Below, piece after piece: positions 4,475-54,294 of a DNA stretch of 64,000 nucleotides. The stretch covers positions 1,054,001 through 1,118,000 of the forward strand of contig NZ_CP117812.1 in assembly GCF_028728065.1 (NCBI RefSeq), given 5' to 3'. The position numbers and the translations under genes are program-made. Position 1 is the stretch's first letter. Every line of letters starts with the position of its first letter. This stretch comes from Lentisphaera profundi. Its GTDB lineage: Bacteria; Verrucomicrobiota; Lentisphaeria; Lentisphaerales; Lentisphaeraceae. Below the pieces are notes generated by a model, which did not search any database, had not been told where the DNA came from, and saw only the letters and a program-made list of their open reading frames with translations.

Positions 4475-4515
4475 TTCTAAGATCTCACATGATTAAGCAC
4501 CTGAGGCCGTAATGA

Positions 4516-4844
4516 GAGTGCGCAGCACTCAAATTGCCTGGTCGAGGACTGGCAAGTCCTTGCAGGGGAGTTCTAATGAGTGGGAACTTAAGAGATATTT
4601 GAGCTCGAAGAGCTTAGGCATGTAGCCATGGACGTAAGTCCGTGGTGTTTGAATAACATCATCGCGCGTGCCGAAGGTACGCTGCAGAGCGTTTCCTTCA
4701 TACCTTCGGCATGAATATCATTTTTTTAACAACACCCACCGGATAAATCCGATGGCTACCCTACTACATACCTTCGGCATGTGCTTAAGTTCCCACCCAT
4801 TAAGGGGAGTTCGAGGGGACAGAGTCTTCTCGTGTGCGAAGCAC
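4516..4844 (+). repeat. Structured intergenic repeat, copy A (interrupted)
   Basis: Copy A of a dispersed non-coding repeat also found at 22604-22691 (reverse) and 54182-54275. Host sequence is 4516-4573 joined to 4813-4844; the part between is an insertion plus one copy of a 10-bp duplication. Hairpins: GAGTGC-GCA-GCACTC (4516-4530), AGGACT-GGCA-AGTCCT (4545-4560), CGAGGGGAC-AGA-GTCTTCTCG after the insertion, and GTGC-GAA-GCAC (4834-4844). Base changes between copies fall in the stems and are mostly compensated. It lies between convergent genes. Function is unknown. Confidence 0.75.
4574..4802. mobile_element. MITE-like palindromic element, 229 bp
   Basis: The element is bounded by terminal inverted repeats TAATGAGTGGGAACTTAAG (4574-4592) and CTTAAGTTCCCACCCATTA (4784-4802), matching at 18 of 19 positions. 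It is flanked by a perfect 10-bp direct repeat AGGGGAGTTC (4564-4573 and 4803-4812), read as a target-site duplication. The interior is a long imperfect palindrome with GTAGCCAT arms and small hairpins at 4603-4613, 4666-4682, 4699-4713 and 4767-4781. It encodes no plausible protein, so transposition would have to be in trans. The two other copies of the host repeat show the uninterrupted site, which supports insertion. Confidence 0.8.
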
Positions 4845-4911
4845 CCAGGGAAATGATAAGCGGCGTGATCTGCTTAAACAAAAAATTTAAGTCACGAAGA
4901 TATGAGTTAAT

Positions 4912-8243: not shown

Positions 8244-9731
8244 CTATTTCTTCCAGTTTTGTGGTAGGAGTTCCATTAAATTTTCTTTTGGGTGATCAAT
8301 GATTCTCCTGAGCACATCCTCTAAGTATTCTTTTGGATTGATACCCAGCTTACGACAAGTCTGGATTAAGGAGATGATATTGGCAGCCGCTTGGCCGCCT
8401 TTTTCACTGCCGAAGAAAAGCCAGTTTTTTCTACCAATAGTAAGCGGACGAATAGCGCGTTCACTCACATTGTTATCTATGCGAGCATCCGGATAAGCAA
8501 GAAAAGCTTTAAATGCTTCTTGCCGTTTAAGTAGGTACTCCATTGCCGTTTTAAGTTTGCCTTTGGGCTCACATGCTTTGTAGTAATGATCTTGAATCGT
8601 CTTTAATAGAGCTTCAACAAAAGGCTTTGTTTTCCTATTGCGAAAGCTCTGTCGCTTTGCCGAAGTACCAAGCGCCCAAGCATCCTGTTCGAGTTCAAAG
8701 AGCTTATCCATCAAAATAAGCACTTGTTTACAGAATTCGTTTGGATTGGGTGTGTCAAAAAACTTACGCCTGGCATGAGCCCAGCAAGCCTGCCAATCGA
8801 TACCATCAAGCTTATCCATTTTTTCATACGCAGCAAAAGCATCGGCATGAAAAACTCCTTGAAAGTCTTTCATTCGATCTAATGTATGGGAGTGTGAACG
8901 GTCTTTGGTGAATTCGAACCAAACGAGAGGAGGGTCTGGACCATCGCCGCCGACATAAACCCAAATCCGACCTTCTTGAAGCTTACCTTTACCTTTTGTT
9001 TGAAGCTTAACAGGGCTGTCATCTGTAAAAACTCTTGATGAGTTTAAAATTTGATCTCGTAATAAATCACCTAAAGGTTGGAGAGTTTTTCCTAACTGGA
9101 GAACCCAGTTGGAAAGCGTTTGTCGCGCAATAGTAAGTCCATCTCGTTTGAATTGCTCTTCGATACGATAAAGAGGTAAATGGTCGGCATATTTTGAAAT
9201 GAGTATATGTGACAACAAGCTCACATCAGCACGACAGCCTGTTATCGGATGGCTGGGAACTAGAGCGGAGATAACTCCTGCCTTGGGCTTATTTGGAATA
9301 TTGTATTTACGTACACGAGTCTCTATGACTTTGTAACGACCATGAACATAAACAAGTTTTTCTGATGTATCGAATCCCATGAGTTTCAGTTCTACACCAG
9401 TTATGGGATCAACTTTTTCATCTTCGGGCAAATCAATGATTTTAATTTCGCGTTCAGCATTCTCAGGGAAATTGAAATGCGTAAAGGGCTTGCGTTTCTT
9501 CTTCTTTTTTAGGGTATTTACTTTGGGTTCTTCATCTCTTTCTGGTGAATTTGAATCGCCCAGATCCTTAAGGTATTCAGTCCACTCAGGAAAAGTATCT
9601 GAGTTATCAAAGACTACAGTCTCTTTTTTACGACCATACAGCTGGGCTTTTAGATAGGTGTTTTCCTCTTCTAAAAACACAACTTTTTTGGTGAGGTCTG
9701 AGATAGTTTTAGTCATGAAATAATATAGCAT
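8244..9731 (-). CDS. tnpC: IS66 transposase TnpC
   Basis: DDE transposase of 495 aa. The N-terminus has a coiled coil (VVFLEEENTYLKAQLYGRKKE, residues 18-38). It is followed by a zinc-binding/helix-turn-helix region and the catalytic core with VFTDDSP, FHADAFAAYE and NNVSERAIRPL, which supply the D-D-E residues. The C-terminal IS66 tail GRKNWLFFGSEKGG...IISLIQTCRKLGINP is complete. It lies 31 bp downstream of tnpB. Length and motifs are those of an intact IS66 TnpC. A start at the internal Met (MTKTISDL) is also possible. Confidence 0.95.
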   Translation of the reverse strand: MLYYFMTKTISDLTKKVVFLEEENTYLKAQLYGRKKETVVFDNSDTFPEWTEYLKDLGDSNSPERDEEPKVNTLKKKKKRKPFTHFNFPENAEREIKIIDLPEDEKVDPITGVELKLMGFDTSEKLVYVHGRYKVIETRVRKYNIPNKPKAGVISALVPSHPITGCRADVSLLSHILISKYADHLPLYRIEEQFKRDGLTIARQTLSNWVLQLGKTLQPLGDLLRDQILNSSRVFTDDSPVKLQTKGKGKLQEGRIWVYVGGDGPDPPLVWFEFTKDRSHSHTLDRMKDFQGVFHADAFAAYEKMDKLDGIDWQACWAHARRKFFDTPNPNEFCKQVLILMDKLFELEQDAWALGTSAKRQSFRNRKTKPFVEALLKTIQDHYYKACEPKGKLKTAMEYLLKRQEAFKAFLAYPDARIDNNVSERAIRPLTIGRKNWLFFGSEKGGQAAANIISLIQTCRKLGINPKEYLEDVLRRIIDHPKENLMELLPQNWKK

Positions 9732-9762
9732 AACCCCATGATTTTTCAGCTATAAAACCAGG

Positions 9763-10074
9763 CTATTTGATCTTAAAATAGGCCCCTTTACAGCAGTGGA
9801 TCATTAGCAGAAATTCCCGAAAACTAAGCTCAGTTTTAGCTTCGGACATGTCGCTAAAAGTTCCGCGCTCCAACTGTTTATTGAAAATACAAAAACCACC
9901 TTCATCCCAGTAGAGACCTTTCAATAAATTACGCCGTCGATTTATGAAAAGGTAGACATCTCCTGCAAAGAGATTTTCCAGATTACTTAACGCGGTTAAG
10001 CCATTGAAGCCTTTGCGGAGGTTCACGGGTTCGGGATGTAGTTTTAACTTACGATCTTTAAAATATTCTAACAT
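9763..10074 (-). CDS. tnpB: IS66 accessory protein TnpB (Orf2)
   Basis: Protein of 103 aa with the IS66 Orf2 signature: LRKGFNGLTAL, DVYLFINRRRNLLKGLYWDEGGFCIF split across residues 40-65, and KQLERGTF. The family is usually about 110-117 aa, so this is slightly short at the C-terminus but looks intact. TnpB is needed for IS66 transposition, though its biochemical role is unclear. CCAGGAGAT precedes the ATG. It is the first gene of the element, as tnpA is absent. Confidence 0.93.
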   Translation of the reverse strand: MLEYFKDRKLKLHPEPVNLRKGFNGLTALSNLENLFAGDVYLFINRRRNLLKGLYWDEGGFCIFNKQLERGTFSDMSEAKTELSFREFLLMIHCCKGAYFKIK

Positions 10075-22514: not shown

Positions 22515-22603
22515 AAAAACTTTGTCTTTTTAAACTTGAGATTGTTATGTTTTGTCTATTAAATCACACGATTAGGTAGATGACGCCGTAGATTTATTAT
22601 CTG

Positions 22604-22691
22604 GTGCTTCGCACACGAGGGAGCTCTGCCCCTCGAGCTCCCCGCAAGGATCTGCCGGCCCTTGACCTGGCGAATTGAGTACTTCGTACTC
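22604..22691 (-). repeat. Structured intergenic repeat, copy B
   Basis: Reverse-oriented, uninterrupted copy of the repeat seen at 4516-4844 and 54182-54275. Hairpins read on the minus strand: GAGTAC-GAA-GTACTC (22677-22691), a weaker AAGGGCC/GATCCTT stem, CGAGGG/CCCTCG, and GTGC-GAA-GCAC (22604-22614). It carries CGGGGAGCTCGAGG where copy A has its insertion, showing the empty site. It lies between pepN and an aldo/keto reductase gene on the same strand. Confidence 0.75.
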
Positions 22692-54181: not shown

Positions 54182-54275
54182 GGGGTGAAGCCCCTTAATC
54201 GCCTGGTCAAGGATTGGCAAATCCTTGCTGGGAGAGCTCGAGAGGGACAGCTTCCCTCTCGTAGGTAAAGCATCA
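54182..54275 (+). repeat. Structured intergenic repeat, copy C
   Basis: Uninterrupted copy of the repeat at 4516-4844 and 22604-22691. Hairpins: GGGGT-GAA-GCCCC (54182-54194), CAAGGATT-GGCA-AATCCTTG (54208-54227) and CGAGAGGGA-CAGCT-TCCCTCTCG (54239-54261). The final GTGC/GCAC hairpin of the other copies is degraded here. Stem sequences differ from copies A and B but pairing is kept. It lies in the spacer between the haem protein and kinase genes. Confidence 0.72.
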
Positions 54276-54294
54276 TGCTCTTTATTATGCTTAA

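Follow-up and report, generated by a model that had tools for sequence, protein, structure and literature searches.

Members of the IS4 subgroup of the IS4 family have ends of the form -AATR--------WTW---- and direct repeats of 10-13 bp, and the repeats of the IS231 subgroup measure 10-12 bp (Table 1 of 'IS4 family goes genomic', PMC2266710). In E. coli MG1655, we read the ends of IS4 as TAATGCCGATCAGTTAAGG and TAATGCCAGTCAGTTAAGC. We analyzed a 64-kb stretch of DNA (the window, C2:1054001-1118000 of a 5.46 Mb genome in two contigs, hereafter G000), in which a 229-bp segment at 4574-4802 has ends that carry -AATR followed by TTAAG. In comparison with the IS4 consensus, AATG at positions 2-5 of the end fits, and C-T-T at positions 14-16 agrees with two of the three WTW positions. 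The target duplication of 10 bp lies inside the range of the subgroup; the initial annotation had described this length as unusual, but it is a normal one for IS4-subgroup elements. Because of the ends, the duplication length and a partner element in a same-genus genome (G002), we assign the segment to the IS4 subgroup of the IS4 family, as a non-autonomous MITE that a DDE transposase probably mobilized in trans, a reading to which we give a probability of about 0.88. The element type is known and the family itself is apparently undescribed; the open-access literature that we searched held no description of MITEs in Lentisphaera.

Structure of the element and its empty sites

The element is a complete copy (4574..4802, plus strand), as judged from its ends and from its genomic copies. 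End comparison placed the left terminal inverted repeat, TAATGAGTGGGAACTTAAG, at 4574..4592 (plus strand) and the right one, which reads inward TAATGGGTGGGAACTTAAG, at 4784..4802 (minus strand). The two repeats are 19 bp long and identical at 18 of 19 positions. They are flanked by an exact 10-bp target duplication, AGGGGAGTTC, at 4564..4573 on the left and at 4803..4812 on the right; host repeats without the element have this site only once. By arm clustering, the interior consists of a left arm of the 'arm 2' type (4593..4683, plus strand), reading AGATATTTGAGCTCGAAGAGCTTAGG.. and containing the hairpin GCCATGGACGTAAGTCCGTGGT, and of a right arm of the 'arm 1' type (4693..4783, minus strand), reading inward CACATGCCGAAGGTATGTAGTAGGGTAGCC.. 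and forming a hairpin around CCACCGGATAAATCCGATGG. No ORF of at least 60 aa was found inside the element, and one 62-aa ORF crosses its right end outward. The minimum free energy of the element was -48.1 kcal/mol, compared to a mean of -22.8 for shuffled sequences (z -7.15), and none of 200 shuffles was as low. The gene-free, hairpin-rich 229-bp palindrome of the initial annotation was thus reproduced with its terminal repeats and its duplication.

The element interrupts a host repeat, with a left part at 4480..4573 and a right part at 4813..4900 (both plus strand), which belongs to a separate palindromic family with 44 matches in the genome. Two copies of this host repeat in the window carry no insertion. 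The first was found by BLAST at 22603..22691 (minus strand), with the empty site GGGGAGCTCGAGGGG; the second, at 54182..54290 (plus strand) with the site GGGAGAGCTCGAGAGGG, was below the BLAST threshold and was recognized by eye. Both copies have diverged from the repeat at 4480-4900, and both run unbroken through the GGGGAGYTC-type site. Since the 10-bp site is single in these uninserted copies, the claim of a true insertion is borne out, and the flanking repeat is not part of a native tandem structure. By eye, the outer parts of the host repeat resemble an inverted repeat near TTAAGCAGMTGACGCCGTA.

Copies, mosaicism and target preference

We observed about 43 substantial matches to the 229-bp sequence in its own genome, many of them 85-97% identical, and the best other copies were 97% identical over the full length. 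The end pattern TAATGNNNGGGAACTTAAG gave 68 forward and 68 reverse matches with at most two mismatches, whereas a reversed control pattern gave 4 and 1, respectively. Chance is excluded for the element at 4574-4802, because of these 43 genome matches and because duplications are enriched at length 10 alone. The MITE reading already proposed from the window is therefore supported by many genomic copies, conserved ends and 10-bp duplications, and the case of an element without other copies, which had also been considered, did not arise. Bacterial MITEs are recognized by a length of 50-1000 bp without a transposase gene, by terminal inverted repeats and by multiple copies with target duplications, and all of these features were found here.

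The inventory of elements was built from the regions containing 121 of the 136 ends detected at up to two mismatches. Clustering of the 91 bases inside each end separated at least six recurrent arm types, represented by 39 (arm 1), 29 (arm 2), 28, 8, 8 and 6 ends. The element at 4574-4802 joins arms 2 and 1, and other units join arms 3+1, 1+3 or 5+3. The MITE family is mosaic, the same ends enclosing recombined arm types. Several mosaic units have 10-bp duplications of their own, matching at 9 or 10 of 10 positions, and these chimeras therefore appear to have moved as units. The elements are intergenic, as 39 of 41 tested end pairs overlap no ORF of at least 120 aa. On the other contig of the genome (C1:1017233-1018328), a cluster of nested and tandem elements brings together seven end matches within about 1.1 kb. 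End positions 6-8 hold a variable triplet, which we also compared between the two ends of the elements. It was identical in 4 cases versus 6.1 expected, and 60 bases matched versus 50 expected (P 0.06), so that equality of the triplet at both ends is unsupported.

We compared the flanks of 57 end pairs, a count that includes overlapping combinations. At length 10, the flanks of 11 pairs agreed at no fewer than 8 of the 10 positions, versus 1.06 expected from a control in which the right flanks were permuted among elements. No flank matches were seen at lengths 7, 8, 13, 14 and 15, and one or two each at lengths 9, 11 and 12. Four 10-bp duplications were perfect (AGGGGAGTTC, GAGGCTCTCC, CGGGGAGCTC and GGGGCCCCTT), and these cases include the element at 4574-4802 and a 332-bp mosaic. 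The other 46 of the 57 end pairs lack a clear 10-bp duplication and probably represent old, nested or rearranged copies. The 10 bases outside the ends contain 68% G+C, compared to 42% across the element-bearing regions compared, with a bias to G at -10 to -7 and to C at -4 to -1. The target is palindromic and G+C-rich, reads about GGGGNNCCCC and usually lies within other palindromic repeats of the genome; a GGGGAGYTC-type core, as in the host repeat, adjoins 14 of the 136 ends.

In the mechanism that we propose, a DDE transposase of the cut-and-paste type, supplied in trans, would bind the 19-bp TAATGNNNGGGAACTTAAG ends and excise the element, and a staggered cut at GGGGNNCCCC-type targets during joining would produce the 10-bp duplication. 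With most targets located in G+C-rich palindromes that belong to other repeats, elements would accumulate and nest there, and if any two inverted ends could work as a unit, interiors would be shuffled and a mosaic family would result. The further idea that the transposase itself picks palindromic, hairpin-forming targets with GGGGNNCCCC cores in other repeats, which would make the repeats a self-nesting, recombining population where any two inverted ends yield a new unit, is a tentative one that we consider rather unlikely.

Origin of the transposase and alternative readings

In G002, we identified two copies of an IS4-type IS (C10:138209-140007 and C41:23163-24960; 1798-1799 bp). Both of its ends read TAATGGGAGGGAACTTAAG, which are the same 19-bp ends as those of the MITE with the triplet variant GGA, and its 10-bp target duplications, GGGGGGGGGG and CCCCCCCTTC, lie in G/C runs. 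The transposase scored 128.8 bits against the NCBIfam IS4 family NF033592 (cut-off 115) and aligned with E. coli InsG (E 3e-13). Its D-70-D-108-E arrangement and its YREK signature YRQRYLVEVAYRHLK fit D(60-110)D(100-150)E and Y(2)R(3)E(6)K, and a DUF6788 ORF is present upstream of its gene. In both copies, the transposase gene carries a frameshift close to its start, which sets this IS apart from the single-ORF organization of the IS4 subgroup and may correspond to decay, to a draft error or to a programmed event. Since the frameshift is shared, the activity of the transposase is uncertain, and the IS is called IS4-type, short of a proven active member. Its similarity to the elements of G000 is limited to the outer 25-30 bp or so.

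A transposase gene sharing the MITE ends, as anticipated in the initial annotation, was thus present in the same genus and not in the element's own genome, where the G002 transposase had no match at 1e-5. A close match to this protein was found in G002 only among 99 genomes, and no close relatives were found in the named genome collection. Another member of the genus carries a 208-bp element that aligns along its whole length, at 89% identity, with a 207-bp element of G000 of the arm-3/arm-6 type. Across 198 genomes of the class, the exact end pattern occurred in G000 and three genomes of its family only. The named genome collection yielded 17 stretches with this pattern, mostly single matches as by chance, with the exception of the Lentisphaerales MAG ALOHA_ZT_19, which has several exact end matches, one of them an inverted pair.

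An enzyme still present in the genome could in principle have moved the elements. Cross-recognition by a resident DDE IS, with a transposase of 411, 487 or 519 aa, would agree with the three multicopy PF01609 groups of the genome and with the habits of the 519-aa IS, which targets palindromes and makes duplications of about 9-10 bp (e.g., GGCTTACGCC). However, the resident ends CACAGTCATCCCATA, GATGCACTCCGACA and CTGGCTTTTATACAC (Tn5-like) do not match TAATGNNNGGGAACTTAAG, and the duplications of the 487-aa IS look shorter than 10 bp by eye; we consider cross-recognition very unlikely, and the multicopy PF01609 ISs were rejected as partners on account of their different ends. The Tn5-like IS, which is 2008 bp long with the ends CTGGCTTTTATACAC, lies inside CCTGGGGC..GCCCCAGG palindromes with 9-10 bp duplications. 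Neither of the two full insertion sequences of the window is enclosed by a MITE end pair. Two minus-strand ORFs at 8244-10074, 495 and 103 aa long, resemble IS66 transposase genes. It is hardly credible that a 2358-bp unit found at C2:430689-433046 is the autonomous element, still present in the genome. This unit has MITE ends, an exact 10-bp duplication (CGGGGAGCTC) and a 489-aa transposase gene inside, but this gene is IS110-like (NF033542, 7e-36, 124 bits, below the cut-off of 140), and IS110 elements are not known to have such inverted repeats and duplications. The unit was rejected as the autonomous element for this reason; its best reading is a copy of the MITE family into which an IS110 element has inserted.

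A different kind of explanation is that the segment is no transposon and represents a REP/BIME-type chromosomal repeat or a structured RNA with a host function. Its strong fold, its intergenic position and the conservation of several hairpins would suit this explanation, which is nevertheless largely refuted by the exact target duplications. The empty sites also speak against it. The ends are moreover common to an autonomous-type IS, compensatory change on both sides was seen in 0 of the 43 predicted pairs of the element fold, and an Rfam search of the window gave no match. Finally, the 229-bp sequence was absent from 39 relatives, two of them same-genus genomes, and we regard a host-function repeat or RNA as highly improbable.

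For the IS4-subgroup MITE, the missing homologue of the G002 transposase and the different ends of the resident ISs make orphans the best reading of the G000 copies. As no homologue is found there, the mobilizing enzyme is deduced from the relative: a G002-like transposase, or a close relative of it, would have moved the copies in trans. It has probably since been lost from the genome or has escaped detection, and the copies would now be immobile. An apparently undescribed MITE family of a Lentisphaerales-type genome thereby gains an IS4-family home. The genome is still full of mosaic copies, the matching transposase not being found there, and the copy set provides a natural record of nested insertion in palindromic repeats.

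Comparison with known elements

The MITE shares with E. coli IS4 the TAATG tip and the TTAAG motif of its terminal repeat, a target duplication of about one helical turn and, on the side of the G002 relative, a DDE/YREK transposase. Unlike IS4, it is devoid of genes, the spacing of the two motifs in its end is larger by one base, and its duplication is 10 bp, whereas the flanks of the MG1655 IS4 share 12 (CAGAACCAAGAT). The 1.8-kb IS of G002 shares its 19-bp ends with the MITE, likewise makes 10-bp duplications within G/C runs, and resembles some G000 arms over about 25-30 bp at its termini. By contrast, this IS is laid out like an autonomous element, with a DUF6788 ORF and a transposase gene that carries a frameshift, and its interior has no similarity to the 229-bp element. 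MIC231 and IS231-derived cassettes (IS4 family, IS231 subgroup) are likewise non-autonomous units between IS4-family ends, and IS231 prefers G..C targets. The ends of IS231 start with CAT, however, whereas those of the MITE start with TAAT, and the host phylum differs. As in TIMEs, which are Tn3-derived miniature elements, element ends generate mosaic non-autonomous units, but TIMEs have 38-bp Tn3 ends, duplications of 5-6 bp and AT-rich targets (PMC4133298).
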